From Marinilongibacter aquaticus (GTDB taxonomy: Bacteria > Bacteroidota > Bacteroidia > Cytophagales > Spirosomataceae), in the NCBI RefSeq assembly GCF_020149935.1, contig NZ_CP083757.1, positions 744,001-808,000 of the forward strand: DNA of 64,000 nt, written 5' to 3'. This document shows, one piece after another, positions 14,162 through 31,878 of the stretch. Each line of letters begins with the position of its first letter. Position 1 is the first letter of the stretch. Position numbers and translations under genes: made by a program. The notes beneath the pieces were generated by a model. The model did not search any database. It saw only the letters and a list, made by a program, of their open reading frames with translations, and was not told the origin of the DNA.

Positions 14162-14194
14162 TCGGCAAAAATAGCAAATCCAAGGTATTCGAGA

Positions 14195-14890: not shown

Positions 14891-15269
14891 AAAGTCGAAT
14901 TTTCAGTTCGAGTTCAGGTCTGGCCAAAGCCTTTTCCAACCTTTCGAAGATCACCCAGGCGATATTTTCGGCGGTCGGGTTCAAATCTTGAAACTCGGGT
15001 ACTTCTATATTTAAGTTTTTGTGGTCAAAATGATCCAACACGTGCTCTTTTATCAAATCCGACAGAATTTTCATGTCGTACACATAGCCCGTTCTCGGAT
15101 CTACCTCACCAGCCAAGCGTACTTCCAAATTGTAATTGTGCCCATGAAAATGTGGGTTGTTGCATTTGCCAAACACTTTTTGGTTTGTTTCGGCATCCCA
15201 TTCGGGATTATGCAAACGGTGAGCAGCATTGAAATGCTCTAAACGGTATACAGCTACTTTTCTTTTCAA
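14853..15269 (-). CDS. queD: 6-carboxy-5,6,7,8-tetrahydropterin synthase (QueD/PTPS family), TTG start
   Basis: The 138-residue protein has the zinc ligands of the PTPS fold: FNAAHRL near residue 15 and FHGHNY near 41-46, plus the cysteine of GKCNNPHFHGH that marks QueD-type catalysis. A conserved D-H pair (LDHFDHKNLN) and PTAENIAW follow. QueD converts dihydroneopterin triphosphate to 6-carboxytetrahydropterin in queuosine synthesis. The only sensible start is TTG at 15269; there is no nearby ATG that keeps the first strand. It heads the group queD-folE-nudix-lysE and is followed directly by folE, which supplies its substrate. Confidence 0.88.
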   Translation of the reverse strand: MKRKVAVYRLEHFNAAHRLHNPEWDAETNQKVFGKCNNPHFHGHNYNLEVRLAGEVDPRTGYVYDMKILSDLIKEHVLDHFDHKNLNIEVPEFQDLNPTAENIAWVIFERLEKALARPELELKIRLYETERNYVEYPA

Positions 15270-15489
15270 ATTAATTCAATTTCCCGACCCAGTTCACCTG
15301 AACAAAGTTTGTGCTCTAAATCCCTGAATCGTTCGGATTTTTAATCCTTTGCAGAACTCCACTACAACAGGCTTATGATACGATTAGTTCTATTTTTTGT
15401 CATTTTGAATGAAAAAGTTTCAAATATCCCTTAAGAAACGTAAACTAGGCATCTCATTTCAACCTGAAAAATTTTGACCATATTGAACT

Positions 15490-16833
15490 ATGAAACGACG
15501 CGACTTTATTTCAACAACCGCAGCCGCCGCTGCACTGCCCTACATTCCCTTGCGGAGCAAAATCAACTCTTCGTCGAAAGTACGTTTGGGCTTTATCGGA
15601 ACCGGCCTGCGAGGAAGAACGCATGTCAGGCAAGCTTTGTTTCGCGAAGATGTGGAAATCACCGCCATTTGTGATATCGACCCCGAAGCCATCAAATACA
15701 CTTTGGAACTTTTCGACAAAATGGGCAAGCCCAAACCCGAAGTGTATGCCAAAGGCGAGTACGATTTCAAAAACCTTTGTAAACGTCAAGATATCGACGG
15801 TATAGTCATTGCCACTCCTTGGGAATGGCACGTGCCGATGGCTTTGGAAAGCATGAATGCGGGCAAATACACCGCCGTGGAAGTTTCGGCTACGGTGACT
15901 TTACAAGAATCTTGGGATTTGGTCAATACTTTCGAAAGAACGGGTTCGCATTGCATGATTCTCGAAAATGTATGCTACCGAAGAGATATCATGGCCATTC
16001 TGAATATGATACGGAAAGGCCTTTTTGGCGAAATGCTCTACGCCCATTGCGGATACCAACACGATCTGCGTGAAGTGAAATTCAATGACGGAAAGCATTT
16101 CCACGGGCACGGTGTCGAATTTGGCGAGAAAGCCATTTCCGAGGCCAAATGGAGGACGCAACACTCTGTGGACAGAAACGGAGACATCTACCCCACTCAC
16201 GGACTCGGGCCCGTAGCCCATTGGTTCGACATCAACCGCGGCAATAAATTCAATTACCTGACATCGATGGCCACAAAATCGCGTGGTTTGCACAAATATA
16301 TTGTAGATGAAGGCGGAGAAGATCACCCGAACGCCAAAGTAAAGTTCAAACTTGGCGACATTGTCACTACAACCATTTCTTGCGAAAACGGAGAAAATAT
16401 TGTGATTATTCATGACACCAATTCGCCTAGGCCCTATTCTTTGGGTTTTCGGGCACAGGGTACAGAAGGGCTTTGGATGCGAGATGGCAACACCATCTAT
16501 TTGCAAGGTGTTTCTGAAAAAGCACACCAGTGGGAGTCTTTCGATAAGTATCAAGAAAAATACGATCACCCTCTTTGGAGAAAATTTTCCAATGATGCTC
16601 AAAATGCTGGGCACGGCGGAATCGACTTCTTTGTATTGCGTGGTTTTATCGAATCGATCAAAAGAAATGTAGCTCCGCCAATCGATGTGTACGATGCGGC
16701 GGCTTGGTCGGCCATCAGCCCCCTCTCCGAATTGTCGATTGCCAGAGGAAGCTCGCCCGTGGAAATCCCCGATTTCACGCGAGGGGCATGGAAAAACAAC
16801 ACACGTATTTTCGGCTTAAACGACGAATATTGA
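15490..16833 (+). CDS. GH109-type oxidoreductase/glycosidase (Gfo/Idh/MocA family), Tat-like signal
   Basis: The 447-residue protein starts MKRRDFISTTAAAAAL, a twin-arginine-like signal. A Rossmann domain follows (GFIGTGLRGRTHV near 36-48, ICDIDPEAI) and then the GH109-specific segments ENVCYRRDIMAILNM, CGYQHDL, VEFGEKAISEAKWRT and YPTHGLGPVAHW. The match to the characterised Elizabethkingia alpha-N-acetylgalactosaminidase (NAD-dependent GH109) is close over the full length. It probably cleaves alpha-GalNAc or a related terminal sugar in the periplasm, with NAD tightly bound. A terminator separates it from the sugar MFS gene downstream, so they are neighbours rather than a proven operon. Confidence 0.88.
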   Translation: MKRRDFISTTAAAAALPYIPLRSKINSSSKVRLGFIGTGLRGRTHVRQALFREDVEITAICDIDPEAIKYTLELFDKMGKPKPEVYAKGEYDFKNLCKRQDIDGIVIATPWEWHVPMALESMNAGKYTAVEVSATVTLQESWDLVNTFERTGSHCMILENVCYRRDIMAILNMIRKGLFGEMLYAHCGYQHDLREVKFNDGKHFHGHGVEFGEKAISEAKWRTQHSVDRNGDIYPTHGLGPVAHWFDINRGNKFNYLTSMATKSRGLHKYIVDEGGEDHPNAKVKFKLGDIVTTTISCENGENIVIIHDTNSPRPYSLGFRAQGTEGLWMRDGNTIYLQGVSEKAHQWESFDKYQEKYDHPLWRKFSNDAQNAGHGGIDFFVLRGFIESIKRNVAPPIDVYDAAAWSAISPLSELSIARGSSPVEIPDFTRGAWKNNTRIFGLNDEY

Positions 16834-16836
16834 TTG

Positions 16837-16864
16837 AAGGCAAGGGATTTTCTCCTTGCCTTTT
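16837..16864 (+). terminator. Rho-independent terminator after the GH109 gene
   Basis: A nine-base perfect stem AAGGCAAGG / CCTTGCCTT with an eight-base loop is followed by TTTT. It lies 3 bp after the stop codon. Confidence 0.75.
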
Positions 16865-17083
16865 CCATTTGAAAGACCTACCGTTTTTAATAAGGCAATT
16901 TTACTCATTTACATGATTTAGGCCTTACGGAAGTCGAACTTTATGATATAAAACTGCACGATTTATAATATTTTCGACAAAAAAATGCGGTTCGGAAAAT
17001 CCCAGTAGTCGGATTTGTAGGAAATCTTCATACATTTAAAAAAAATTTAAAAAATCAATTAAACCTTTTTTATAACCTACGAT

Positions 17084-18400
17084 ATGGCATCTCAACAAAC
17101 CAAGAACTTTGTATTACCCTTGATTATCATCGGGATTCTATACTTCATTTTGGGGTTTGTCACCTGGATCAACGGAGCTTTGATCCCCTTCATGAAAACA
17201 ATCAATGAACTCACCGATGCCCAATCGTATCTTGTGGCTTCAGCCTCTTACATCTCTTTCGTGGTGATGGCCCTACCGGCCTCGTATGTCATCAATAAAG
17301 TAGGCTATAGAAAAGGCATGTCTTTGGGTTTGGCCTTGATGGCCGCCGGAGCCTTGGTTTTCATTCCGGCAGCCGAAGCCCGTACGTATTGGGTTTTCCT
17401 TACGGGAATTTTCATTCAGGGTACAGGAATGACCATTTTGCAAACGGCCATAAATCCGTATGTGACAATTTTGGGCCCGATAGATTCTGCAGCCAAGCGG
17501 ATTTCTTTGATGGGTATTTGCAATAAAACAGCCGGAGCCTTGGGTTCTTTTATTTTCGGGGCCTTGTTGCTTTCGGGCATCGACGATATCAAACAGAAAC
17601 TAACCGAGGTGTCTGCGGATGAAAAAGTGACTCTTTTGAACGAAATGGCCGACAGCGTGGTGGTACCTTATATCACCATGGCCATCGCTTTGGGTTTCCT
17701 TTCTCTATTGATTATAAAAGCATCTTTGCCGCATGTAGAAGCGGCCGACAACGAAGAAGCGGATGCACAGGAAGGAGCAAGCAAGAAAACCAGTATTTTC
17801 CAGTTCCCGCACTTGTGGCTTGGTGTATTGGCCTTGTTTGTCTATGTGGGTGTTGAAGTAATTGCAGGCGATACGATCATTTCTTACGGTCTTTCATTGG
17901 GTATGCCCGGTGAGAAAGCCAAATCGTTTACTTTGATGACCCTCTTTGCCATGGTGGGCACCTACGGAATTGGAGCTCTTTTGATTCCGCGTTTCATCAG
18001 CCAGAAAACAGCACTTACGGTCAGTGCGATTTTGGGTATTGTTTTTGGAATAGGTATCGTTTCCACCACCGGATTTGTATCGGTGCTTTTTGTAGCCGCT
18101 CTCGGTATTGCCAACGCCCTTGTATGGCCTTCCATTTGGCCTTTGGCTTTGAACGGTTTGGGTAAATTCACGAAAACCGCTTCTGCACTATTGGTTATGG
18201 CCATTTCGGGTGGAGCCATCATTCCGCCACTCTATGGGCTTCTTGTAGACAGCAAAAAAGCCGAACAGATTGGCCAAGGCGTCGAACAGGCCGTAGCTCA
18301 ATCACAGGCAGCCACTTCGAGCTATTGGATATTATTCCCATGTTATGCCATTATACTTTATTATGCTCTTCATGGGCATAAAGTGGGTTTGAAAAAATAA
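17084..18400 (+). CDS. Sugar MFS transporter, FucP/GluP family
   Basis: The 438-residue protein has twelve hydrophobic segments and the family phrases LYFILGFVTWINGALIPFMK, GYRKGMSLGLALMAAGAL and QTAINPYV. FucP/GluP carriers import fucose, glucose/galactose or amino sugars with protons across the inner membrane. A central cytoplasmic loop (about 220-240) is acidic. It lies 250 bp after the GH109 gene, which would release a hexosamine or similar sugar, so import of that sugar is a reasonable guess. A terminator follows. Confidence 0.9.
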   Translation: MASQQTKNFVLPLIIIGILYFILGFVTWINGALIPFMKTINELTDAQSYLVASASYISFVVMALPASYVINKVGYRKGMSLGLALMAAGALVFIPAAEARTYWVFLTGIFIQGTGMTILQTAINPYVTILGPIDSAAKRISLMGICNKTAGALGSFIFGALLLSGIDDIKQKLTEVSADEKVTLLNEMADSVVVPYITMAIALGFLSLLIIKASLPHVEAADNEEADAQEGASKKTSIFQFPHLWLGVLALFVYVGVEVIAGDTIISYGLSLGMPGEKAKSFTLMTLFAMVGTYGIGALLIPRFISQKTALTVSAILGIVFGIGIVSTTGFVSVLFVAALGIANALVWPSIWPLALNGLGKFTKTASALLVMAISGGAIIPPLYGLLVDSKKAEQIGQGVEQAVAQSQAATSSYWILFPCYAIILYYALHGHKVGLKK

Positions 18401-18422
18401 GACTTGCACTGCACTTCATCAA

Positions 18423-18457
18423 GAGGCCGTCACGCAAAAACGTGATGGCCTTTTTTG
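18423..18457 (+). terminator. Rho-independent terminator after the sugar transporter
   Basis: Ten-base stem GGCCGTCACG / CGTGATGGCC, with one G-T pair, a loop of CAAAAA type, and six T afterwards. Confidence 0.85.
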
Positions 18458-18504
18458 TTTGCCGATCCAAGCCCATTGTACAAGGCTTTAAAAGGCAAAA
18501 TCCC

Positions 18505-18512
18505 TATTTTTG
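18505..18512 (+). promoter_or_regulatory. -7 element for leuS
   Basis: TATTTTTG matches TAnnTTTG and ends 27 bp before the leuS ATG. An in-frame start at 18510 would lie inside this element, which argues for the ATG at 18540. Confidence 0.5.
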
Positions 18513-18539
18513 CCGAAAATTTTATCAAGACCTTATTTC

Positions 18540-21359
18540 ATGGCAAATTATACTCACGGCGAAATCGAAAAGAAATGGCAAAAGTACTGGGACGAACACA
18601 GCACTTATGCCGTAGATATTGACCCCGAAAAGCCCAAATATTACATTCTCGATATGTTTCCCTACCCCTCTGGAGCCGGACTGCACGTAGGCCATCCGCT
18701 GGGATATATCGCCTCGGATATTTTTGCCCGATATAAAAAGTTAAAGGGTTTCAATGTATTGCACCCCATGGGTTTCGACTCCTTTGGTTTGCCGGCAGAG
18801 CAATACGCCATTCAAACAGGGCAACATCCCGCCATTACCACAAAGAAAAACATCGAAACCTATATCGGTCAATTGAAAAACATTGGCTTTGGCTACGATT
18901 GGAGCCGAGAAATCCGTACCTCTGATCCTGCATATTACAAATGGACACAATGGATTTTCATGCAATTGTTCAACTCTTGGTACAATTTGGAGAGCAACAA
19001 GGCGGAAGACATTGAAACGCTGAAAAGTAAATTCGAAGCGGGAGGATCGGCCGCTGCCAAAGCGGTATGTGCTGAAGATTTGCCCGAATTTACAGCGGAA
19101 GAATGGAAGGCCATGAGCGAGGAAGAACAATATGAAACCACGCTGGCCTACCGCATGACCTACCTTTCTGAATCGGTGGTAAACTTTTGCCCTGCTTTGG
19201 GCATGGTTTTGTCGAACGACGAAGTAAAGGATGGCGTATCTGAACGCGGTGGATACCCGGTGATCCAGAAAAAAATGAGACAATGGGTGATGCGAATCAC
19301 CGCCTATTGCGATAGACTAATCGATGGTTTGGACGGCGTGGATTGGTCCGAATCTTTAAAAGAACAACAACGCAATTGGATCGGTCGCTCGAAAGGAGCT
19401 TCTGTGAAATTCGCTTTGGCCGAAAACGTAGAATTGGACGGAAAAGCAGTCGATCATGTGGAAGTATTCACCACGCGCATCGATACCATTTATGGCGTAA
19501 GTTTCATGGTTTTGGCCCCCGAAAACGAATTGGTGCCGCTCATTACCACCGCCGACAGAAAAGAGGCCGTAGAGCACTATATCGCCGAAACAGCCAAGAA
19601 ATCAGAATTGGATCGCATGTCAAACGTGAAAACGGTTTCGGGCACATTTACAGGTGCTTATTGCGTGCATCCGCTCACGGGCGAAAAAGTGCCCATCTGG
19701 ATAGCCGATTACGTATTGGCGGGTTACGGCACAGGAGCCGTAATGGCCGTGCCCAGCGGCGATCAACGGGATTATGATTTTGCCAAACATTTCGATTTGC
19801 CCATTCTGCCCATATCCGATGCCCAACAAAATTTGGATGAAGCCGCCGATGCAAGCAAAGAGGGCCGTTACATCAATTCGGAAATGATCAACGGCATGGC
19901 TTATGACGAAGCCGTGGATACGCTGATCCGTTATGTAGAAGACAAAAAAATCGGAAAAGGCAAAGTAAACTATCGCCTACGCGATGCGGTTTTTGCTCGA
20001 CAAAGGTATTGGGGCGAACCCGTGCCCGTTTATTTCAAGGAAAATACAAAAGGCGAGGCTCTTCCCTATTTGATCGACGAATCGGATTTGCCTTTGGAAT
20101 TGCCGAAAATAGACGAATACAAACCCACCGAAACGGGTGAACCTCCTTTGGGCCGTGCCAAAGGTTGGAAATACAAAGGCCAGTATGAATATGAATTGTC
20201 GACCATGCCCGGTTGGGCCGGAAGCAGCTGGTATTGGTATCGCTACATGGACCCCAAAAACGAAAAGGCCTTTGCCTCGAAAGAAGCTTTGGCTTATTGG
20301 AAAGACGTGGATTTGTACTTGGGCGGTACCGAACACGCCACAGGGCACTTGCTTTACAGTCGTTTTTGGAATAAATTCTTGAAAGACAAAGGCTTTGTAC
20401 AAGAAGAAGAATTTGCAAAAAAACTGATCAACCAAGGAATGATTCAAGGGCGATCGAGTTTTGTGTACCGCATTAAAAATGCAGACGAAATCACTTTTGT
20501 GTCTTACGGTTTAAAAGACCAATACGATACGGCAAAATTGCATGTGGATGTAAATTTGGTCGACAACGATGTGTTGGATGTGCAAGCCTTTATCAGCAGC
20601 AGAAACGATATCGGAGAGAATCCGAAATTCATTTTGGAAGACGGCAAATACGTCTGCGGCTCTGAAGTAGAGAAAATGTCGAAATCCAAATTCAATGTGG
20701 TCAATCCCGATGATTTGGTGGAGAAATACGGAGCCGACACCCTTCGCCTTTATGAAATGTTCTTGGGTCCGCTCACCGAAGCCAAACCTTGGGACACAAA
20801 AGGTATTGAAGGTACTTCGCGATTCTTGAAAAAGCTGTGGCGTTTGTTCTTCGACAATCAGGGAGAAAGCATTGTGAGTGCCGAAAAAGCCAGCAAAGAA
20901 GAGTTGAAAGCCCTGCACAAGGCCATCAAAAAAGTGGGCGAAGACATCGAAAACTTTTCCTTCAACACTTCGGTGAGTACTTTCATGATTTGCGTGAACG
21001 AACTTACCGATCTGAAATGCCATAAAAAGGAGATTCTCGAGCAATTGCTTATCATTCTTTCGCCGTACGCTCCGCACATTGCCGAAGAACTTTGGGCACA
21101 AATTGGGAATGCAGAAGGTACGATTACCGTGCAAAGATTCCCCGCCTTCAATGCGGAATACCTGAAAGAAGACAGTTTTGAATACCCGATTCAAATTGGT
21201 GGAAAAGTACGCCTGAAATTGAGCTTTGCCGCCGATGCTTCGAAAGAAGAAATCGAAAAAGGAGTTTTGGAAAACGAAACCGTTCAAAAATGGATGGAAG
21301 GGAAACCGCTTCGAAAAATCATCGTCGTACCAAAACGTATCGTAAACGTAGTGGTTTAA
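18540..21359 (+). CDS. leuS: Leucyl-tRNA synthetase
   Basis: The 939-residue class I synthetase begins MANYTHGEIEKKWQ, with the HIGH-type motif HVGH at 49-52 and KMSKS at about 712-716. The CP1 editing domain is present (TTRIDTIYGVSFMVLAPE, GTGAVMAVPSGDQRD). Just before KMSKS there is an extra stretch of roughly 70 residues (from NQGMIQGRSS to VCGSEVE) beyond the short E. coli-type loop; I have seen this in Bacteroidota LeuRS and consider it normal. The gene charges tRNA-Leu in the cytoplasm. It stands alone and is convergent with the next gene. Confidence 0.97.
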   Translation: MANYTHGEIEKKWQKYWDEHSTYAVDIDPEKPKYYILDMFPYPSGAGLHVGHPLGYIASDIFARYKKLKGFNVLHPMGFDSFGLPAEQYAIQTGQHPAITTKKNIETYIGQLKNIGFGYDWSREIRTSDPAYYKWTQWIFMQLFNSWYNLESNKAEDIETLKSKFEAGGSAAAKAVCAEDLPEFTAEEWKAMSEEEQYETTLAYRMTYLSESVVNFCPALGMVLSNDEVKDGVSERGGYPVIQKKMRQWVMRITAYCDRLIDGLDGVDWSESLKEQQRNWIGRSKGASVKFALAENVELDGKAVDHVEVFTTRIDTIYGVSFMVLAPENELVPLITTADRKEAVEHYIAETAKKSELDRMSNVKTVSGTFTGAYCVHPLTGEKVPIWIADYVLAGYGTGAVMAVPSGDQRDYDFAKHFDLPILPISDAQQNLDEAADASKEGRYINSEMINGMAYDEAVDTLIRYVEDKKIGKGKVNYRLRDAVFARQRYWGEPVPVYFKENTKGEALPYLIDESDLPLELPKIDEYKPTETGEPPLGRAKGWKYKGQYEYELSTMPGWAGSSWYWYRYMDPKNEKAFASKEALAYWKDVDLYLGGTEHATGHLLYSRFWNKFLKDKGFVQEEEFAKKLINQGMIQGRSSFVYRIKNADEITFVSYGLKDQYDTAKLHVDVNLVDNDVLDVQAFISSRNDIGENPKFILEDGKYVCGSEVEKMSKSKFNVVNPDDLVEKYGADTLRLYEMFLGPLTEAKPWDTKGIEGTSRFLKKLWRLFFDNQGESIVSAEKASKEELKALHKAIKKVGEDIENFSFNTSVSTFMICVNELTDLKCHKKEILEQLLIILSPYAPHIAEELWAQIGNAEGTITVQRFPAFNAEYLKEDSFEYPIQIGGKVRLKLSFAADASKEEIEKGVLENETVQKWMEGKPLRKIIVVPKRIVNVVV

Positions 21360-21366
21360 AAAATAT

Positions 21367-21402
21367 ACGGGTGGCTAAAGGTAAATTTAGCTTCCCGTTT
21401 TA
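21367..21402. terminator. Bidirectional terminator between leuS and the metalloprotease-like gene
   Basis: Stem ACGGGTGGCTAAA / TTTAGCTTCCCGT, with one T-T mismatch, is followed by TTTT on the plus side and preceded by A-rich sequence. It fills the 40 bp convergent gap. Confidence 0.75.
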
Positions 21403-24219
21403 ATTTCCGATCAACAATTCGATGAAGAGTGGCTTATCAAATTGAATGTGCGGATTGGGCAAACGATAGCCAAAACGTACGCCTATTGGAATATTGTAAA
21501 GATTCAGGGCAGTTTCATCAAAAAGCAGTTCTAGGCCAAAAGATTTAAACTGCGTGTCCAGGTTCAAGGCTTTCACTTGAGCAAAATCAAAGAAGAAATT
21601 TCCCCGCACACGTTTGATGTAAGTCAGGCCGTTGATTCCCCAATCGGGGTACAAAAGAGGCAATTGGTAATTGGCCGAAAAACGCCAGCCGCCCTCGAGT
21701 CCACCCACAGAAAATCCCCTTGCAAAGGCAAAGTCATCGGCCAGTTGGTACAAATTCAACAAGCTTTCTTCTTGATAAACCGTATTCAGACGCAGGCCGT
21801 GGTTTCGGCCAATACCGGGCAAATAGGCGTTCAGACTCGTCGTTAATTTTTCAGCAATGCCCGCTTGCAATGATTTTTGGTAATTGGCGTACACACTTGC
21901 TCCCAATCGCGGCTGCACATGCTGATAGGCCGTTTGTCGCAAGACAGAAAAACTTCCAATCATTTGATAAAGGCCAAATTTGTCGGAAAAAATACCTCTT
22001 TGTTCTGAACTTTGAAAAGGCTGCAAACCTTTCCAAAAGGCCGAAAAATTTGATCGATATGCGAAATTGTGTTTCAGTGTGTACAAAGGCACTTCCACGC
22101 CGGCCTGCAATTCCTGCTCATCAAAACGAAGAATTCGGTTTCCGCGATTGGCCTCGATAGATCGCCCTCTGAAATTATAACCCAAGTGGAAAATTGGGAA
22201 AAAACGCCCATACGTATAATCAAATCCGTAGCCATTTTCCTTTTCATTGAAATAGCGATCATAGTGCACGGTCAAGCCATGCCGACCCAGAATATCGTTC
22301 ATGAGCAAATAGGCCTGGGCCGTGTTCACCGTGAAATTACCCGACGCCTTGCTGAAAGAACTCACCAGACCATAAGAGTGCACCTTGAAGCCATCGAACA
22401 GGGTATTGTATTTCCGAATTGTGTAATCTTTTTCAGGAATGGAGTCCAATATGTTTCCCGCTTCACTGAAAGTCAATAAAGGCTTGTAAAGGGGCAAATC
22501 CTTAGCCGCTACAGGTTGAAAATTTTCGGTTTGAAAGGCCGTTCGCACCCATCGACTGCCGTGCATATCGTAATTGGCAAAATAGAGCGAGTCGCCCTTT
22601 CCAGCAGGAAAACCAGCCGCCACGGGCACAGCACTCAACCTGTAAACCAACCCCTTGCCCGATTTATCTAAAGCGTAAATATTGTCTATTCCGTCGAAAC
22701 CCGCTCGGAAAAGCAGCAGGCCTTTAAAAAAGGAAGGCTCCACCACCGCAAATGTATACCAATCGCTGATCCGTTCGCTCCGGTCCTGCGAAATGTCGTG
22801 GCGTATCCACGCTTGCTTTCCATCAAATTTTATCGTGTAATAGAGTTGATTTTGATCAGCGGGGTCGAAAATAGGATAGCCGATTGTTTCATGAGCAGGA
22901 GCATGAAGCTGTTTGAAACTTTCTGGATTTTCAAGCTCACGAATTTTCAAGCTATAATGTTGAGTCGAATCGAATTCCACACAGGCCAAATGCTGACTCG
23001 AAGGGTCAATTGCCGCAAAATAGATTCGCTTTTTAGCCAAAATTTCCACTTTCTTCCTTTTCCTAAAATCAAATCCGACCAAGCGTGTAAAATCCACATT
23101 CCCCCAGCGAGCCTGCGGCTGACTTTCGACCCATACGGCCATATCATCACTGTACGAAACGTATGGATTATCTTGAAACCCGATTTTAGTCCATTCTTCT
23201 GTCGAACCATTTTCAAAATGCATCAAAACAGGTGTGCGATTGTAGGCCGAAAAACGGAAAACCAAACTCTCGTCTTTCATGAAATGGGGATACGAAACAT
23301 AGGACACACTACTTTTTGTATCGCCCCAAAGCGTATCCAAAATACTGAGCTTACGGCTTTCTAAATCCGTTTCCACTTGCCGCTCGAAATCCTTGTAGGC
23401 CGCTTTGTACAATTGGCTCGCTCTCAAACCCGTATTCTTTTTGATTGCTCCTGAAAATGGGTACAAAATCGGTTCAAAACGATTGGCATTCCTTAAAACC
23501 TTGGCCCAAACATCTTCGCCAAATTGTGTTCTGGCATAAAGATTTAAGCGATAACCAAAGGGATAAATCGAAGGCATTTGATTTTTATACGAACCGTTGC
23601 GAGCCTTGGCATAGGAAAATTGCTTTTGGGCGTAAAAAAACGCACGTTGAGACATCGAAAACGAAGGCAAGCGACCACGGCCACTTTCGGTAAAAAGTGT
23701 TTCGGTCATCACGGCATCGCCTTCAGAAAACCAACTGGGCCGCGTGACAGCCTGTATTGTCGACCAACCGTTTCTTCCGGTCAGTATGCGGGTCAAATGC
23801 GTGAGGCCTACATCCGAATTGCTGGCTTGTAACACATGCCGATATTCATGAATGGCCAGAAGATCGAACCAGTTGCTCGGCCCCACATTGTTCCAATCGG
23901 GTATGGTTTGCGGATAAAATTCTGACCGAAACGGCACAGAAGCCACAAAGCCATTCGATTCCAAACTGAGCGTGTTCAAAATAATGGGCACTTGCAGCAC
24001 ACGGCTTCCAATGGATTCGGTTTTTTCACGAGCGATATAATCGATTACAGATCCGACACGAAAGGCCTCTTTTTCGAAACCTTCCGGAAAAACAATTTTC
24101 GATTTATTGTTTTCAATAACTCGCCATTTCAAGCTCGGCGGGTTAGCCGACTCGATAGAAGCTTGTGATTGGGCACGGAATGCTCCCAATATCAACAGAA
24201 AGAAAAGGATTTTTTTCAC
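21400..24219 (-). CDS. Large exported protein: gluzincin-like metalloprotease signature, propeller-like middle, C-terminal outer-membrane barrel
   Basis: The 939-residue protein, read from a GTG at 24219, has a signal peptide ending near AQS (16-19). At 124-128 there is HEYRH, an HExxH zinc site inside LLAIHEYRHVLQ, and at 163-173 WFSEGDAVMTE supplies a plausible third ligand (E166), the pattern of gluzincin peptidases. From about 300 to 620 the sequence has repeated blade-like units of the type YPIFDPADQNQLYY and SLYFANYDMHGSRW, as in TolB/WD40-like propellers. From about 650 to the end it is amphipathic beta-strand sequence like an outer-membrane barrel. I infer a surface protein; proteolysis is unproven. 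The combination in one chain is unusual. Confidence 0.7.
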   Translation of the reverse strand: MKKILFFLLILGAFRAQSQASIESANPPSLKWRVIENNKSKIVFPEGFEKEAFRVGSVIDYIAREKTESIGSRVLQVPIILNTLSLESNGFVASVPFRSEFYPQTIPDWNNVGPSNWFDLLAIHEYRHVLQASNSDVGLTHLTRILTGRNGWSTIQAVTRPSWFSEGDAVMTETLFTESGRGRLPSFSMSQRAFFYAQKQFSYAKARNGSYKNQMPSIYPFGYRLNLYARTQFGEDVWAKVLRNANRFEPILYPFSGAIKKNTGLRASQLYKAAYKDFERQVETDLESRKLSILDTLWGDTKSSVSYVSYPHFMKDESLVFRFSAYNRTPVLMHFENGSTEEWTKIGFQDNPYVSYSDDMAVWVESQPQARWGNVDFTRLVGFDFRKRKKVEILAKKRIYFAAIDPSSQHLACVEFDSTQHYSLKIRELENPESFKQLHAPAHETIGYPIFDPADQNQLYYTIKFDGKQAWIRHDISQDRSERISDWYTFAVVEPSFFKGLLLFRAGFDGIDNIYALDKSGKGLVYRLSAVPVAAGFPAGKGDSLYFANYDMHGSRWVRTAFQTENFQPVAAKDLPLYKPLLTFSEAGNILDSIPEKDYTIRKYNTLFDGFKVHSYGLVSSFSKASGNFTVNTAQAYLLMNDILGRHGLTVHYDRYFNEKENGYGFDYTYGRFFPIFHLGYNFRGRSIEANRGNRILRFDEQELQAGVEVPLYTLKHNFAYRSNFSAFWKGLQPFQSSEQRGIFSDKFGLYQMIGSFSVLRQTAYQHVQPRLGASVYANYQKSLQAGIAEKLTTSLNAYLPGIGRNHGLRLNTVYQEESLLNLYQLADDFAFARGFSVGGLEGGWRFSANYQLPLLYPDWGINGLTYIKRVRGNFFFDFAQVKALNLDTQFKSFGLELLFDETALNLYNIPIGVRFGYRLPNPHIQFDKPLFIELLIGN

Positions 24220-24354
24220 GGAAAGATTTTGGGTTACAATTCAATAAACGAAGTTTTTAACTCATTTGTCCACTGCCCGAAGCTTAATTTAACAAAATAC
24301 CAAACCGCGTTTTCTATTTTCTCGTAATCTCTAATATCAACATTAAATTTGAAA

Positions 24355-24750
24355 ATGAGCCCTTTTAAAAAATATTTAGGACGGCTACTGCGTATAGCCG
24401 TGGCCATTATTTTTCTTCAAACCCTTTACTTCAAATTCTCGGCTCACCCCGATTCTGTCTACATCTTCTCTAAACTTGGCGTAGAACCATACGGACGAAT
24501 CGGTTTGGGCATTTTAGAACTCATTACGGGAATATTGATCTTGATTCCGAAAACGGCGAAATATGGAATGTTTAGCGGACTCGTTCTCATCTCTGGAGCC
24601 TTGGCCAGTCATCTCGGCCCACTGGGCATCGAAATTCGAGGCGATGGAGGCACCCTTTTTTATCTGGCCGTGCTCACTTTTGCATTGACGCTCGTTTGGT
24701 GGGGCCTGAATTTCCAAGAAATCAAATCGTGGATAAAACCTAAAGCGTGA
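24355..24750 (+). CDS. DoxX-like small membrane protein
   Basis: The 131-residue protein has four hydrophobic segments and the DoxX-like layout: an N-terminal helix with IFLQTLYFKFSAHPDS, then GLGILELITGILILIPKTA, and two more helices. DoxX-family proteins are small membrane proteins of uncertain role, some linked to oxidative stress. A TTG two codons upstream (24349) could also serve, but the ATG at 24355 is preferred. The 3' end overlaps the convergent DUF5686 gene by 11 bp. Confidence 0.75.
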   Translation: MSPFKKYLGRLLRIAVAIIFLQTLYFKFSAHPDSVYIFSKLGVEPYGRIGLGILELITGILILIPKTAKYGMFSGLVLISGALASHLGPLGIEIRGDGGTLFYLAVLTFALTLVWWGLNFQEIKSWIKPKA

Positions 24751-27223
24751 TTTCCGCCGAGAATTTGACTCCAAACTTTTTCACCCCTGGGTTGTCCAGA
24801 TAAGTGAGTCTGTGAATGGCCTCTACCCTGAAAAGTTTGAAAATATTGCTGATCCCGTAACCCATTTCTATATACGGTTTATAGGGATCTAAACCCTTCA
24901 CAGCCAAAGCCTGATCGGAGACCAATCCTGTATTGTTTATGCTTTTGTTCTGCTCGCTCAAAGAGCCAAAAAGAATTTTCCCCGTGGCGAAAGTGCGTAG
25001 TTTAAGTTTTTTAATCAGTGGAATCCGGTTGAATATCAAACCTTCCAAATCTTGATGAAAACGTCCCCAAAAGTATTGGTCGCTGGTAAATTCGTAATAG
25101 TTCATCAAATTGAATCCGCTGGTTATGATCAGCGGTGTTTGATTGCCCAAATGGTTTTTCAGAATGGGATACGGCACCGTACCAAAAATTTTCCCGGCCT
25201 CGAAACGATAATAGGTTTTCCCCAACGAACCCAAACTCAGGGTGTGCTTGTATCGGAGCATCACATGGGAATAAGTAAAATCGCTGCCCAAGACATTCGG
25301 TAACCCCAAAATGTATTTCAAAGTAACCGTGGGCGATCGCACCGTGCCCATATCGATTCGCTCATTGTCGTTGATCAAATTGATCTGATCTCTGGCCATT
25401 GTGATTTCACCAACCAGCTCAGATGTCCTGAAATACGATCTCGCTTCACCGGGCTCAGAATAATAGGAAAAAGAATAAAGCGGCGAGAAATCTCGGGTAC
25501 GGAAAGCCATTTTGGCCGTCAGTCCTTTACTCATTTCTCGTTCGGCTTCGATATTGATCTCATTCTCATAATATGGTCTGAGCAAGGTACCGAAGCGTAC
25601 GGCCGCCGAAAAAATTGAGCCGAGCCCCACATCTTCTTCTTTCAGACCCACCTGTTCCAAATCCTTTTTAAAACCTATTTTGGCCGTACTCCATGGCGAT
25701 TTCGAGAAAATCCGCATCACTTCTCCCCCACCTTTCCATTTCCCGTCCTTTGTACCGTAGGCCGTATAGCCTTTAAGTACCCAGCTTTTACTGAAATCGG
25801 TATTGGTGCGTAAACCCAAACGCATACGTGCTCCTTCTGTGTTGTTGATGGCTCCCGTGTGCACCAAAGGCCCGATATCCACACCGTGTACAAAAGGCAC
25901 ATAACCCGTAGTGGCAATATTGGTCAATGTAGTAATGCGTTGCACAGTGGGCAACTGCTTCATGCTGTCGATCATGGCATAAGCCTTGCGGTCGTCCATG
26001 CTCAAACTTTCGGGTCTTATTTTCCGCCAAAAATCATCTTCATTTTCTCGGTAATCGTCAGAAAGGATAATCGGATTGTTGAAGAATGCCGGTTCCTTGG
26101 GTTGATTCAAGCTTATGTTTTCGTTGTAACTGACAAACTTGAGCAAAAGTCCCGAAGAGTTTTTGGAAAGCTGATCCACGTCGATGACCACTCGGCTTTT
26201 GACCGGAAAATACACCGCACCCACTTGCTCTAAATCTTGTTGGATTTTGATGCGGTCGACAAAGTTGAGGTTCGCTTCCTTCCCAATGGTGGCATCGATC
26301 ATCACAAGAGCGTAATTGGCCTTGCTGATCCACATTACCCCAGAAAAAGCCAAATCCTGTTTGTTTTTCGGTTCGAACTCAATGCGGTAAACAAACTCCC
26401 CGCCAAGTGTCAGGCTATCGGCCAAATAATAATCGTAAACCAAACGCCAATCGTTGGCAATAGGCGAAGAGAAATTCTTGTTCAAGATATTCAGTCGACT
26501 TCCGTAGAAATTGTATTGCTGGAAAGTCGATCCAATGAGCTGCGAGGTCAAGCTGCCGTCGGTGGTCGCAATGCCCTTTACGTGTGTTTTCTTTATTACC
26601 TCTTTCGAGAGCGAAGGATTTGTACGGTAATAATAATGCGAGTAGGATTCCGAGATAAACATGGGAATCAGTTTCTCGCCCGAATCGTCCGTAAGCTCGC
26701 CAACCGTCTCGGCGGCTCCTTCTATTTTTCTGTAAATTTTACGCTCACCCAGTTTATCCGAAATCTTATTGGCATCGATTTCCACCTTGTTGTAGCTATC
26801 GTAATCGTAGGCTTCGAGCTGTTTGTAATCGTTCTGCTTGCGGTTATCGACCACTTTTCTCAGAATTCGCCAGGCCGGGTTTTCTCCCGCGTGCACCACC
26901 ACTTCATTCAACAAAACAGAAGAAGGGCTTAAAGAAACTTGGATTTCCTGACTTTGGGCATCGTGAGAAAGCGGAATTTTCATCGTTTCAAAACCCATGG
27001 AACTGATCAAAAGCGTATCGCCTTGGTTTGCGGGAAAAGCCAGAGCAAAAGCCCCTTCGAAATCGCTTAAAGTTCCGAAACTTGTACCCAAAAGACTTAC
27101 CGATGCATACGGAATAGGCTCATTGTTGCTTTTATCAGACACTTTCCCCGTCACCTGAATGTCCTGAGCAAAAGCCCCAACAGTGGCCAACAGCCAAAAT
27201 AAACTGAGGGTTATTCTTTTCAT
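24740..27223 (-). CDS. DUF5686 family outer-membrane protein with carboxypeptidase-like regulatory domain
   Basis: Starting at the ATG at 27223, the 827-residue protein has a signal peptide (KRITLSLFWLLATVGAFAQ), then an N-terminal beta-sandwich of the CarboxypepD_reg type (VTGKVSDKSNNEPIPYASVS, GTLSDFEGAFALAFP, SPSSVLLNEVVVHAG). The rest matches the DUF5686 family: AWRILRKVVDNRKQNDY, YDSYNKVEIDAN, and a long C-terminal beta-strand-rich part ending in FGVKFSAEITL, as expected for a barrel. These proteins are abundant in Bacteroidota outer membranes and have no known function. An in-frame start at 27298 would add 25 residues ahead of the signal and is rejected. It overlaps the DoxX-like gene tail-to-tail. 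Confidence 0.85.
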   Translation of the reverse strand: MKRITLSLFWLLATVGAFAQDIQVTGKVSDKSNNEPIPYASVSLLGTSFGTLSDFEGAFALAFPANQGDTLLISSMGFETMKIPLSHDAQSQEIQVSLSPSSVLLNEVVVHAGENPAWRILRKVVDNRKQNDYKQLEAYDYDSYNKVEIDANKISDKLGERKIYRKIEGAAETVGELTDDSGEKLIPMFISESYSHYYYRTNPSLSKEVIKKTHVKGIATTDGSLTSQLIGSTFQQYNFYGSRLNILNKNFSSPIANDWRLVYDYYLADSLTLGGEFVYRIEFEPKNKQDLAFSGVMWISKANYALVMIDATIGKEANLNFVDRIKIQQDLEQVGAVYFPVKSRVVIDVDQLSKNSSGLLLKFVSYNENISLNQPKEPAFFNNPIILSDDYRENEDDFWRKIRPESLSMDDRKAYAMIDSMKQLPTVQRITTLTNIATTGYVPFVHGVDIGPLVHTGAINNTEGARMRLGLRTNTDFSKSWVLKGYTAYGTKDGKWKGGGEVMRIFSKSPWSTAKIGFKKDLEQVGLKEEDVGLGSIFSAAVRFGTLLRPYYENEINIEAEREMSKGLTAKMAFRTRDFSPLYSFSYYSEPGEARSYFRTSELVGEITMARDQINLINDNERIDMGTVRSPTVTLKYILGLPNVLGSDFTYSHVMLRYKHTLSLGSLGKTYYRFEAGKIFGTVPYPILKNHLGNQTPLIITSGFNLMNYYEFTSDQYFWGRFHQDLEGLIFNRIPLIKKLKLRTFATGKILFGSLSEQNKSINNTGLVSDQALAVKGLDPYKPYIEMGYGISNIFKLFRVEAIHRLTYLDNPGVKKFGVKFSAEITL

Positions 27224-27471
27224 GCTTAATTCATACGGGGGAAACAACGCTTTTGCAGCCCAATTTTTGCTCTCATTCGAAAATAAATGAAATAACAATG
27301 TAAACTGATTTTCTTTTGGAATGGTTTGCCCATTTTGCTTTAAAATCCAAGAAAATATCGACTTTATTCAGCAATCCTTTTTCACATTTCCATGCCCTAT
27401 ACTTTTTCCGTGTTTTTGACAGAAAATGGTTTAGTTTTGAACATCCATTTTACGAATCCCAAATACCCGAC

Positions 27472-28344
27472 ATGTCGAAGAATTTCCTTTTCCTTTTCCT
27501 GCTCAGCGGTCTTTTGTTTTCCTGCCGCGTCGACAAAACAAATTCTGGCAAAAATGCACAAAGCCTAGTCCAACATTTTCATTATCCACAAAATGAAAAA
27601 CGCGTATCGATTCACCGTGGCGGCGGTTTTGAAAGCGATTGGCCCGAAAACTGCATCGAAGGTTTTGCCCATTATCAAAAAGCCATTCCCAATGCCCTGA
27701 TCGAATGCGATGTGCGTGTAAGCCAAGACGGGAAAATGCTTCTGTTGCATGATGGTTTTCTCGAACGTACCACAAGCATGGGCGGATTAGTGAAAAACAC
27801 CGATTTGGAAAAACTTCAGGAGGGCTTTCTTTTGGATAAATCGAAAAAACAAACGCCCTATCGTATTCCTTCACTGGATCAGGTTTTAGCCCAAATGCCC
27901 GCAAATGCCATTTACACGCTCGACGTGAAAAAAGAAACGCCATACGAATGGGTTTGCGAAGCCGTGAGAAAACACAAAAAGGAAAACCAATGCATTATCA
28001 TCACTTATTCGGCCGATCAAGCCAAGAAAGTATATGAAATTGCTCCGGAATTGATGATTTCGGTGACAGCCTACAATGAAGCCGATTACCAACGTTTACA
28101 CGAGCTGGGCATACCCGATCAAAACATGATTGCTTTTATTGGCACCCGAAAACCCAAAAAGGAATTCATCGATTTCATGCATGAAAAAGGAATTCTTTGT
28201 ATTTTGGGTACTTTGGGAAACCTCGACAAACAAGCCGCAAATCAAAACAATACGCTTTACAGTGAATTAGCCAATTTGGGCGTCGATATTTTTGCTACAG
28301 ACCGACCGCTGGATGTACAAAATGTGTTAAATCAAAACCCCTAA
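27472..28344 (+). CDS. Glycerophosphodiester phosphodiesterase family lipoprotein
   Basis: From the ATG at 27472 the 290-residue protein has a signal with lipobox LFSC (C18), then the GDPD core: IHRGGG with the catalytic histidine, WPENCIEGF with the glutamate, ECDVRVSQDGKMLLLHD with the metal-binding acid and second histidine, and YTLDVKKE. It hydrolyses glycerophosphodiesters or related phosphodiesters at the envelope. A longer reading from 27316 would put about 50 residues before the signal and is unlikely. It begins a tight run with the M20 gene 3 bp after its stop. Confidence 0.9.
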   Translation: MSKNFLFLFLLSGLLFSCRVDKTNSGKNAQSLVQHFHYPQNEKRVSIHRGGGFESDWPENCIEGFAHYQKAIPNALIECDVRVSQDGKMLLLHDGFLERTTSMGGLVKNTDLEKLQEGFLLDKSKKQTPYRIPSLDQVLAQMPANAIYTLDVKKETPYEWVCEAVRKHKKENQCIIITYSADQAKKVYEIAPELMISVTAYNEADYQRLHELGIPDQNMIAFIGTRKPKKEFIDFMHEKGILCILGTLGNLDKQAANQNNTLYSELANLGVDIFATDRPLDVQNVLNQNP

Positions 28345-28347
28345 ATT

Positions 28348-29643
28348 TTGAAAGTTTTATTTACTTTTTTCCTTCTTTTTAATGCAGCGTTTACCCTTTT
28401 GGGGCAAGAATCGCTGAAAAAACAAATGGCCGCAGAAGCCGAAGGGCTTGAAGATAAACTCATTGCATGGCGAAGAGATTTCCATACTCACCCCGAATTG
28501 AGCAATCAAGAATTCAGAACGGCTGAAATTGTTGCCAAACATTTGAAAAGTTTGGGTTTGGAAGTGCAAACGGGCGTCGCCGAAACAGGCGTAGTAGGCA
28601 TTTTAAAGGGTGGACTTCCCGGTCCTGTAATGGCCCTTCGGGCAGATATGGACGCATTGCCGGTAAGTGAACGTACCGATGTACCCTTTAAATCTGCGGT
28701 TACGACGACTTTCAATGAGCAGCAAACCGGAGTGATGCATGCCTGCGGTCACGATAGCCATATAGCCATTCTGATGGCCACGGCCGAAGTGCTGGCCAAG
28801 CACAAAACCGAATTGAAAGGTACGGTCAAATTCATTTTCCAACCCGCCGAAGAAGGCGTTTTCGGTTCGGGAAAAGCCTTTGGTGCAGACCTTATGGTAC
28901 AGGAAGGCGTATTGGAAAACCCAAAAGTGGAAGCCGTATTCGGTTTGCACATTAATTCGCAAACGCCTGCAGGAGCGATCAAATACAAACCGGGGCCTGA
29001 AATGGCGGCTGTAGACCAATTGTACATCGATGTGCTGGGCACACAAACCCACGGAGCCTATCCTTGGTCGGGCGTGGATCCCGTGACCACCGCTTCTCAA
29101 ATAGTGATGGGCTTGCAAACCATCGTCAGCCGAAATGTAAAGCTCATCGACAATCCGGCGGTGGTAAGCGTGGGAGCTATTCACGGGGGAATTCGCCACA
29201 ACATCATTCCCGAGAAGGTATCTTTGGTGGGTACGATTCGTACATTCAGCGAAGCACAACAACAATTGGTGCACAGGAGAATTCGGGAAATTGCAGAAAA
29301 TATCGCAAAAAGTGCCGGAGCAGAAGCCAAAGTGAAAATAGAACGCGGCTATCCCGTGACTTATAATGATCCCGAATTATCCGAAAAAATGAGACCGAGC
29401 TTGGAAGAGGCGGCGGGTTCTGAAAATGTGATCGGCAGCACTTTAGTGATGGGAGCCGAAGATTTCTCCTATTTCGCAAAAAAAGTACCCGGATTGTTCT
29501 TCTTTTTGGGCGGAATGGACCCACAGAAAAAGCCCGAAGAGGTGGCTCCACACCATACGCCCGATTTTTATTTGGACGAATCGGGATTTGTAGTGGGTGT
29601 TAAAGCATTTTGCAATTTAATTGTCGACTACGGCAATCAATAA
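28348..29643 (+). CDS. M20D amidohydrolase (hippurate/IAA-conjugate hydrolase type), exported, TTG start
   Basis: The 431-residue protein matches M20D amidohydrolases (RRDFHTHPELSNQEFRTAE, VMALRADMDALPV, MHACGHDSHIA, FQPAEEG, VFGLHIN, HGAYPW). The metal ligands are H/C/E residues in these motifs. A signal peptide (VLFTFFLLFNAAFTLLG) precedes it. The start is TTG at 28348; the next in-frame ATG (near residue 27) would cut off the signal. It likely removes acyl or aromatic groups from amino acids or peptides in the periplasm. The gene sits between the GDPD gene (3 bp gap) and tsaC (1 bp gap). Confidence 0.9.
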   Translation: MKVLFTFFLLFNAAFTLLGQESLKKQMAAEAEGLEDKLIAWRRDFHTHPELSNQEFRTAEIVAKHLKSLGLEVQTGVAETGVVGILKGGLPGPVMALRADMDALPVSERTDVPFKSAVTTTFNEQQTGVMHACGHDSHIAILMATAEVLAKHKTELKGTVKFIFQPAEEGVFGSGKAFGADLMVQEGVLENPKVEAVFGLHINSQTPAGAIKYKPGPEMAAVDQLYIDVLGTQTHGAYPWSGVDPVTTASQIVMGLQTIVSRNVKLIDNPAVVSVGAIHGGIRHNIIPEKVSLVGTIRTFSEAQQQLVHRRIREIAENIAKSAGAEAKVKIERGYPVTYNDPELSEKMRPSLEEAAGSENVIGSTLVMGAEDFSYFAKKVPGLFFFLGGMDPQKKPEEVAPHHTPDFYLDESGFVVGVKAFCNLIVDYGNQ

Positions 29644-29644
29644 A

Positions 29645-30274
29645 ATGGAAGCAGAGGTAATACGAATATACGAGAGCGAACCCGATCTGGACAAAATCGA
29701 GCAGGTGGTACGTGTCTTGAAAGACGGAGGCATTATCATATATCCTACCGATACGGTTTATGCCATGGGCTGCGACATTTACCAGAACAGGGCTGTGGAG
29801 AAGCTTTCGCAACTGAAAGGGATGAAAGTGAAGAAAAACAATTTCTCCATTGTTTGTGCCGATCTCAGCGACATTGCCGATTATGCCCGCGTGAGCGACA
29901 AAGCCTTTAAGGTCATGAAAAAAGCCTTTCCGGGGCCTTTTACCTTTATTCTGCCTGCAAGCAATAAATTACCCAAAATACTGCAATCCAACAGGAAAAG
30001 CATCGGAATTCGTGTGCCCGATCACCCGATTCCGAAAGCTTTGGTCCGACACTTGGGCAATCCCATTATCACCACATCTGTTAAAGACGACGTGGATGAT
30101 CTGCTGGAATATCCCAATGAAATTGACATCATTATCAATCAAAACATGAACAAAGCCGACATGATTATCGATGGCGGTTGGAGCGGAATAACTCCTTCAA
30201 CCGTGGTTTCGGCCTTGGACGATGAATTTGAGGTAGTCCGCGAGGGGCTTGGCGACTTTGATGAAATTTTGTAA
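29645..30274 (+). CDS. tsaC: L-threonylcarbamoyladenylate synthase, TsaC/YrdC type
   Basis: The 209-residue protein has the YrdC fold: IIIYPTDTVYAMGC, KLSQLKGMKVKKNNFSIVC and the PGPFTFILPAS segment, with RKSIGIRVPDHP and a TSVKDDVDDL site where ATP binds. It makes threonylcarbamoyl-AMP from threonine, bicarbonate and ATP, for the t6A37 modification of ANN-decoding tRNAs. Length matches TsaC, without the Sua5 C-terminal domain. A TTG start at 29621 would overlap the M20 gene and is not favoured; the ATG at 29645 follows its stop by 1 bp. Confidence 0.93.
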   Translation: MEAEVIRIYESEPDLDKIEQVVRVLKDGGIIIYPTDTVYAMGCDIYQNRAVEKLSQLKGMKVKKNNFSIVCADLSDIADYARVSDKAFKVMKKAFPGPFTFILPASNKLPKILQSNRKSIGIRVPDHPIPKALVRHLGNPIITTSVKDDVDDLLEYPNEIDIIINQNMNKADMIIDGGWSGITPSTVVSALDDEFEVVREGLGDFDEIL

Positions 30275-30307
30275 AAAGCTGCTGCATTCAAAAAAGCAAT
30301 TTGCCCA

Positions 30308-31186
30308 TTAATTGTGCGGGCGTTTGTGCTTCCACCGCTTGTGACTCCAAAGCCACAATTCTGGTTTTTCTTTGATTTGTTCTTCAAGCAATTGGGCATG
30401 TTTTTCGAGTATTGCCCCGTCCAGATCCTTCTGAGGTTCTTTCGTAATCCATTCAAATCCGATACTGTAGTATCCACGCTGGGGCCGCGTCATCCGAACA
30501 AAAATTACAGGCATACCGTACTTCTTTGGGATCTTTTCCGTACCCCAAAAAAAGGAAGTATCTTGATTCAAGAAAGTAGTCCAATACGATTGTTTTGGCG
30601 GTGCCGATTGGTCATTGGCCAAACCAACCACAAAATGCCTTTCCCGTTTTTGGCGTATGGCCCACATGGTCTCTCGGGTAGGAAAAAGGACTGTGCCGAA
30701 ACGACTTCTCGCTTTTAGAAAAAGCCGATCGAAATACGGATTGGCCAATACATGGTAGGGAGCCAAAACTTGCTGATAAATCAAAAGGTCAAAAGCTTGC
30801 ACAAGCCATTCGTAATTGCCGTAATGGCCCATGGTCAACACACCATCCAAATCCATGGCCTCAAGCTCTTCAAAAAGCCTTTTGGTTTCCTCCAAATGCA
30901 CACGCTTACGCAATTCCTTTTCAGAAATGGTAAAAGATTTAATCGATTCTACGAACAAATCGCACAAATAATGGTAAAAACGAACCTCGATTTCTATTCT
31001 TTCTTGTTCCGTTTTTTCGGGAAAGGCATTCTCCAAATTTTTACGGACTACAGCTTTACGGTAGGCCAAAAGCTTATAAAGTACGGGATAAATCAATACA
31101 TCAGAAACCGCATAAAGTACCGGAAAAGGCAGATACGATACAGCATAAATGAAAGGTAAAGACAAATAAAAGGCTACAGCTTTCAA
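30308..31186 (-). CDS. LpxL/HtrB-type lysophospholipid acyltransferase, TTG start
   Basis: The 292-residue protein has a hydrophobic N-terminus (VAFYLSLPFIYAVSYLPF), a basic RKAVVRKNLENAFPEK segment, and the catalytic H-x4-E motif H121-E126 in MGHYGNYEW. These are the features of Kdo2-lipid A lauroyl/myristoyl transferases of the LpxL family at the inner membrane. The start is TTG at 31186, two bases after the TAA of the upstream gene; the longer reading into that gene would place a long unrelated N-terminus first. In this phylum such proteins may also acylate other lipids, so the substrate is open. Confidence 0.88.
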   Translation of the reverse strand: MKAVAFYLSLPFIYAVSYLPFPVLYAVSDVLIYPVLYKLLAYRKAVVRKNLENAFPEKTEQERIEIEVRFYHYLCDLFVESIKSFTISEKELRKRVHLEETKRLFEELEAMDLDGVLTMGHYGNYEWLVQAFDLLIYQQVLAPYHVLANPYFDRLFLKARSRFGTVLFPTRETMWAIRQKRERHFVVGLANDQSAPPKQSYWTTFLNQDTSFFWGTEKIPKKYGMPVIFVRMTRPQRGYYSIGFEWITKEPQKDLDGAILEKHAQLLEEQIKEKPELWLWSHKRWKHKRPHN

Positions 31187-31187
31187 A

Positions 31188-31781: not shown

Positions 31782-31878
31782 CTACTTATATTTACTGCAA
31801 AATTACGAGATTTTCACGGGCGTAAATAATGAATCCGAGAAATGACCGTTTGAATTACGTGCTTTAAAATTAGACAAC

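Follow-up and report, generated by a model that had tools for sequence, protein, structure and literature searches.

The locus and the domain order of its product

The DNA analysed here, termed the window, is a 64,000-nucleotide stretch of the genome of Marinilongibacter aquaticus (contig NZ_CP083757.1, positions 744,001 to 808,000). On its minus strand, at positions 21400..24219 (stop codon included), lies a complete gene that starts with GTG and encodes a protein of 939 residues. This is exactly the open reading frame of the original prediction, a reading of the sequence alone that had proposed a surface-anchored protease joined to a propeller-like middle part and an outer-membrane barrel. 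The single chain almost certainly consists of a gluzincin-type domain, then a TolB-like beta-propeller and then an Omp85-type barrel. This order, as originally proposed, is supported by a full-length AlphaFold model built with 81 sequences (predicted local distance difference test, pLDDT, 90.5; predicted template modelling score, pTM, 0.91), which contains a mixed domain at residues 32-287, 23 strands at residues 295-561 and, at residues 612-937, 16 strands of at least seven residues and one of three. The top match of the whole model in Foldseek was the tricorn protease. In the organism's own 4.64 Mb genome, the protein was matched once, by itself. When the full protein was the query, the only Pfam match, SNaCT11 (E 0.038), was rejected as being under the cut-off, two rows of a single-sequence search of the PDB (E 0.4) were judged to be chance, and a single-sequence search of NCBIfam gave 0 matches.

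Conservation was assessed in several sets of relatives. One set of 49 rows was gathered without the use of any motif; it includes the window's own copy (L001) and omits the fragments L008, L024 and L025 as well as L026 (no match). Set A1 (48 rows, window included) also leaves out the truncated L020. Set A2 comprises the window and 80 loci, the best 80 of at least 588 confirmed stretches in named genomes; because the pattern PxW[FY]xEGDAV, derived from A1, served to retrieve A2, positions P161, W163 and E166-V170 are not independent there. Sets A3 and A4 hold 38 of 41 rows (every second A2 member, with three more omitted), and A5 holds 40 distant proteins hand-picked from weaker matches, not all of which were taken. 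In the genome searches, no more than 10-17 first-look candidates were scored for each genome.

The signal peptide that had been noticed at the hydrophobic N-terminus can be assigned to residues 1-18 (24166..24219; like all features of this gene, on the minus strand), with a proposed cut before Q19. Glutamine follows the hydrophobic N-terminus in 80 of the 81 A2 rows, the remaining row having a gap. Such conservation is consistent with a cut by signal peptidase I before Gln, by analogy with the 'Q-rule' of Bacteroidota (PMC5837995, PMC10653852; here and below, papers are cited for the accessible parts of their text).

A gluzincin-type domain with a conserved predicted active site

The N-terminal domain covers approximately residues 30-290 (23350..24132). 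Modelled alone with 38 sequences (pLDDT 81), it aligned with the collagenase VhaC (9l5o_A) at Z 12.5 (3.7 Å over 220 residues), with lugdulysin of family M30 at Z 11.8 and with M1-type aminopeptidases at Z of about 9-10. By title, all 50 rows listed for this fold comparison are collagenases, lugdulysin, or M1-type aminopeptidases and LTA4 hydrolases, all of which we take to be gluzincins. As modelled, the domain has the gluzincin fold of clan MA, and its likeness to M9, M30 and M1-type proteins supports the gluzincin-type domain of the original prediction. By sequence, the domain profile had no credible match among PDB sequences, and membership of family M9 was rejected (PF01752, 12.9 bits against a cut-off of 26, E 0.067). 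For Peptidase_MA_2 (PF13485), no match of the window's domain was listed at E <= 5, in a search whose HMMER filters discard weak matches; a distant relative, L214, reached 48.4 bits against a cut-off of 32.4.

The predicted active site is spread over two helices and a tyrosine. The motif H124-E-Y-R-H128 (23836..23850) is placed on helix 117-135 of the model and is followed on helix 162-176 by W163-F-S-E166-G-D-A-V-M-T-E173 (23701..23733), both just as they had been read originally. By analogy with gluzincins, we take H124, H128 and E166 to be the three zinc ligands, E125 to be the general base and Y219 (23563..23565) to be a candidate transition-state tyrosine, assignments with which the conservation of these residues agrees. 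HExxH, the signature of clan MA gluzincins, occurs once in the protein, as against 0.02 expected occurrences in a random protein of the same length and composition. In the motif-free set, H124, E125, R127, H128, Q131, E166, G167, D168, A169, E173 and Y219 are invariant in 49 of 49 rows, and W163 is kept in 48. HExRH is found in all 81 A2 rows, in which residue 126 varies, and N89 is unvaried apart from a Q in one of them. The distant relatives of A5, whose open frames span 933-1180 residues, have HExxH in 40 of 40 cases; in that alignment the His, Glu and His do not vary, nor do the E-G and A that come later, the Tyr, or the Asn in the SNG strand. Y219 is likewise kept in 49/49 motif-free rows, 81/81 A2 rows and 40/40 A5 rows. 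In 74 of the 81 A2 rows, the third ligand comes 42 positions after the first His; in A5 this spacing is 30-60. Judged by these alignments, the protease-type residues are strongly constrained, including E125, which would act as a base and not as a zinc ligand, and the protein is probably an active zinc protease.

R127 and D168 occur together in 48/48 A1 rows and 81/81 A2 rows, in contrast to 0/40 A5 rows, where both positions are uncharged. They likely form a salt bridge beside the predicted zinc site that marks the branch of the close family. A second branch (L214-L233) has the same layout, with open frames of approximately 970-1180 residues, and often coexists with the first branch in one genome; its members mostly carry HEFTH or HEYTH and a later W-x-x-E-G, and several match Peptidase_MA_2.

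The TolB-like propeller

The middle of the protein, approximately residues 291-566 (22522..23349), forms a beta-propeller of 23 strands in the model, from which we infer six blades; the blade-like repeats of the original prediction thus correspond to a TolB-like propeller, as judged from the A1 profile and from structural comparison. By sequence, the A1 profile picks out TolB (7mx5_A at E 8.2e-21; TolB range E 1e-14 to 8e-21), and residues 316-566 of the model align with TolB at Z 20.7 (3.0 Å over 236 residues). Because other propellers, such as that of the Diels-Alderase EupfF, equal TolB on Z, the label 'TolB-like' is based on the sequence profile. PD40 (Pfam) is matched by 18 of the 48 A1 members.

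An Omp85-type barrel without POTRA domains

The C-terminal part of the protein is predicted to be a 16-stranded Omp85-type outer-membrane barrel at residues 612-937 (21409..22386), slightly longer than the 290 residues first estimated. Residues 611-939 align with BamA of the Flavobacterium johnsoniae beta-barrel assembly machinery (BAM; chain 9n2d_A) at Z 19.2 (4.4 Å over 296 residues) and with BamA of Escherichia coli and Neisseria at Z 18.7; these last two, TamA and the sorting and assembly machinery (SAM) complex all lie within Z 18-19. Models of LptD were also among the Foldseek matches. R834-G835-F836 (21712..21720), which we take to be the Omp85 loop-6 motif, lies in the loop that connects strands 11 and 12, and strand 13 carries F876-x-D878 (21586..21594), presumably the Omp85 strand-13 motif. 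R834 and G835 are found in 81/81 A2 rows (the third residue is Y in 71 and F in 6 of the 81), and F876 and D878 in 79/81, the other two having gaps. A plain RG[FYW] pattern occurs in the last 330 residues of 20 of the 40 A5 proteins, and some of these matches may lie elsewhere than in the loop; the loop-6 RG motif is firm within the close family only.

The curated Omp85 model (PF01103) did not match the window protein, and the barrel profile had no credible match among PDB sequences. Among the 40 A5 proteins, Pfam (E <= 0.01) found PD40 in 39, Peptidase_MA_2 in 17 and Omp85 in four. Compared directly with Omp85 proteins (23 of 30 fetched loci, namely those with an open frame of more than 700 residues), the family barrel gave a weak, out-of-register alignment at 39-45% probability in profile comparison; the profiles of the N-terminal domain and the propeller gave nothing against the same set, as expected. 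The connection can be followed through intermediates, with E-values each computed for one pair: the family barrel matches the distant group B at E 6e-21 and group C at E 2e-8, group B matches group C at E 3e-10, and group C matches the Omp85 proteins of the M. aquaticus genome and relatives at E 5e-11 over 137 columns. A direct comparison of group B with Omp85 gave 2.4% probability and so no link; the strong sequence link to Omp85 runs only through group C. By modelled fold and these intermediates, and under a barrel-based definition (PMC4104836), the barrel would belong to the Omp85 superfamily. The linker between propeller and barrel, residues 562-611, has only two short helices and so holds no POTRA domain of the kind carried by BamA and TamA; in the model, the propeller stands directly before the barrel, the layout of WD40-Omp85 proteins.

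This layout allows a reading of the protein as an assembly factor, in which the barrel would insert outer-membrane proteins, the propeller would act like BamB and the gluzincin domain would be a client- or metal-binding module, proteolysis being beside the point. The BamA-like fold of the barrel favours such a reading, as does the remark of Heinz and Lithgow (2014, PMC4104836) that WD40-Omp85 proteins, whose propeller they compared with TolB and BamB, call to mind a fusion of BamA with BamB. However, E125, the predicted base that is no zinc ligand, is invariant in 49, 81 and 40 rows, and Y219 is as well; because this invariance is hard to explain otherwise, catalysis is likely the point, and we consider a purely assembling role improbable.

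Linkage of protease and barrel, and distribution of the family

Of 198 genomes of the phylum, 25 had a match to the barrel profile and 104 had one to the gluzincin profile. The barrel match shares an open frame with a gluzincin match in 24 of the 25 cases, and the remaining match is a stretch of 97 residues that contains stops; an intact barrel without the protease was not seen in these 198 genomes. The converse linkage is looser, as many distant gluzincin matches carry barrels too divergent for the profile. Homologues that share the barrel and lack HExxH at random, the outcome that the original prediction had named as speaking against it, were thus looked for in this linkage as well as in the three alignments and were not seen.

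A first related-locus scan with a single sequence as query found no relative. Among the relatives later listed, the closest match in a named organism is in Jiulongibacter sediminis (locus L054; Cytophagales, Bacteroidota; 46% identity over residues 1-938). Chitinophaga filiformis (locus L061) also has the gene. The 80 listed relatives are mostly Bacteroidota by title, and 77 of them have 900-999 residues; L055 is a Balneolaceae bin, and misbinning may account for three metagenome records, L121 (Candidatus Aminicenantes), L092 (Chlorobi) and L120 (uncultured bacterium). With the single protein as query (E <= 0.001), matches were obtained in 23 of 39 relative genomes and in 101 of 296 genomes of the phylum, its own genome being included in both counts.

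In one family with reduced genomes, whose sizes of 0.7-2.7 Mb resemble those of intracellular symbionts, the gluzincin domain is kept in 19 of 21 genomes, with HExRH in 19/19 copies; three of these copies run into the end of a contig or locus or were read in part. An Omp85 match was found in 20 of these 21 genomes, which have 0-3 each. Retention of the domain in such genomes fits a housekeeping role in the envelope better than it fits nutrient digestion, and because even some very small genomes keep the family, the protein is probably a working part of outer-membrane upkeep.

Gene neighbourhood

A leucyl-tRNA synthetase (LeuRS) gene (18510-21359) converges on the protease-barrel gene from one side, and a DoxX-like gene (its match under the cut-off) diverges from it on the other. 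In 28 of the 81 loci, the window included, LeuRS lies nearby on the opposite strand, and both in the window and at L054 the two genes converge; every other neighbour family occurs in at most 15 of the 81. LeuRS and the protease-barrel gene thus form a durable pair with no obvious functional link. The neighbourhood speaks for old vertical inheritance.

The neighbours also bear on a reading of the protein as a dedicated maturation protease, which would process one class of exported precursors (propeptides, lipoproteins or secretion-system cargo) and not damaged proteins. The pair R127 and D168 by the predicted zinc site, confined to the close family, hints at a narrow specificity pocket of the kind such an enzyme might have; the neighbours, however, vary among the 81 loci and link no substrate gene to the family, and this reading seems to us unlikely.

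At 24740-27298, the minus strand encodes an outer-membrane protein with CarboxypepD_reg and DUF5686, the N-terminal part of which also matches BamP, a family of BAM subunits (NF053692), at E 1.6e-8 and 34.3 bits, far under the cut-off of 230. At 15490-18400, a GFO/IDH-type oxidoreductase gene is followed on the same strand by a NagP/GluP-like sugar transporter gene, possibly a small sugar operon. The DNA repeats inside the protease-barrel gene are short and chance-like, and an Rfam scan of 14000-32000 gave no match. Promoter-like and terminator-like sites (9 and 8 observed against 5.3 and 4.4 in shuffles) were not used as evidence.

Which side of the outer membrane?

How might such a protein be oriented? 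The N-terminal domains of Omp85 superfamily proteins sit in the periplasm. Because an even-stranded Omp85 barrel has both of its ends there, residues 19-611 would begin in the periplasm. The alternative is a surface protease, in which the barrel, or BAM together with the barrel, would export the propeller and the gluzincin domain to digest external proteins. It can draw on the best fold matches of the domain, which are bacterial collagenases, that is, secreted enzymes. Against it, the close family keeps the loop-6 R-G and the strand-13 F-x-D, which are expected of a plugged Omp85 barrel, and the domain is retained in reduced genomes. The precedent of PlpD was once thought to favour export, since PlpD was proposed to export its N-terminal enzyme ('type Vd'), but later work assigns that enzyme to the periplasm and judges it unfavourable for a folded domain to be exported through a barrel of this kind (PMC11116518). 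The surface is the less likely side because of Omp85 topology and this precedent; the claim of surface anchoring therefore finds no support, and we regard a surface protease as rather unlikely. By the same analogies, there is good reason to expect that the soluble part faces the periplasm.

A proposed role in the envelope

We tentatively propose, at a little short of even odds, that the protein is an active periplasmic metalloprotease, tethered to the outer membrane, that serves quality control or processing of envelope proteins in the manner of BepA. In this model, the 16-stranded barrel would anchor the protein in the outer membrane. Attached to the N-terminal end of the barrel, the propeller and gluzincin domain would project into the periplasm, in the place that POTRA domains occupy in other Omp85 proteins. 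Zinc would be bound in the gluzincin domain by H124, H128 and E166, with E125 as the base; the propeller may recruit partners or substrates; and the protease may cut envelope proteins, such as stalled outer-membrane proteins or precursors, beside the membrane. The protein would then work as though a protease of the BepA type, a propeller of the BamB/TolB type and a barrel of the BamA type had been fused. Taken by itself, a role in envelope quality control or processing has about an even chance of being correct.

Several observations weigh against this proposal. Used alone on the N-terminal domain, Foldseek gave a best E of only 0.008, with unrelated folds at lower ranks. Among the 81 loci, the most frequent neighbour is LeuRS, and no neighbouring gene suggests a substrate. 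No match was obtained in 16 of the 39 relative genomes or in 82 of 148 genomes of the order (the 66 matching ones include G414, with only a 49-position fragment containing stops); because many relatives show no match, the gene is dispensable in many lineages. Both reduced genomes without the domain measure 0.7 Mb, the smallest size in that family, though another genome of 0.7 Mb has it. Finally, in L251, a reduced genome, the gluzincin part (498 residues) and the barrel part (528 residues) lie in different frames, owing to decay or to sequencing error.

A more far-reaching variant would be a self-contained insertase-protease, in which the seam of the barrel would receive folding outer-membrane proteins, the propeller would hold them and the gluzincin domain would destroy any that became stalled, one chain thus uniting assembly with triage. 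We consider this variant improbable.

Comparison with known systems

The proposed tethered protease shares individual traits with several known systems. Among folds, the N-terminal domain resembles M9 (bacterial collagenases), M30 (lugdulysin) and M1 peptidases, none of which it matched by sequence over a cut-off. The propeller resembles TolB, which itself stands alone as a periplasmic protein and has neither protease nor barrel. BepA, a soluble protein without barrel or propeller, carries tetratricopeptide (TPR) repeats. Its likeness to the window protein is that of a periplasmic zinc metallopeptidase (M48) acting on outer-membrane protein assembly, namely in the biogenesis and degradation of LptD in E. 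coli (PMC8423444). The WD40-Omp85 subfamily has, like the window protein, a propeller most like TolB and an Omp85-type barrel without POTRA domains; unlike in the window protein, no HExxH domain is mentioned in the accessible part of its description (PMC4104836). The 'Metallo' subfamily of the same paper is named an Omp85-metalloprotease group on the basis of the domain PF00149 (PMC4104836). PF00149 is presumably the calcineurin-like phosphoesterase family and not an HExxH protease. In the window protein, no match to a patatin domain was found by Pfam or fold comparison, which places the protein outside the PL-Omp85, or type Vd, proteins.

In the main text of a Flavobacterium BAM paper, the words 'peptidase' and 'propeller' have 0 occurrences (PMC12611786); a second paper on the Bacteroidota BAM is PMC12578637. 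A gluzincin-propeller-Omp85 protein was not found in the literature searched, which lay apart from preprints and most subscription papers. The triple combination is apparently unstudied, although propeller-Omp85 fusions have been known since 2014.

An enzyme on a BamA-type barrel departs from the usual Omp85 role of moving or inserting proteins, and apart from PlpD and the related FplA we met no studied enzyme-Omp85 fusion in the literature searched. Like the window protein, these patatin-like Omp85 proteins carry an enzyme N-terminal to the barrel in one chain; they differ in that the enzyme is a lipase and not a protease, and in that a POTRA domain takes the place of the propeller (PMC11116518). 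In the family described here, which is large (at least 588 stretches) and whose active-site residues are unvaried in the rows examined, the fused enzyme would be a protease, and the comparison raises a testable question: does outer-membrane quality control in Bacteroidota sit on the membrane itself?

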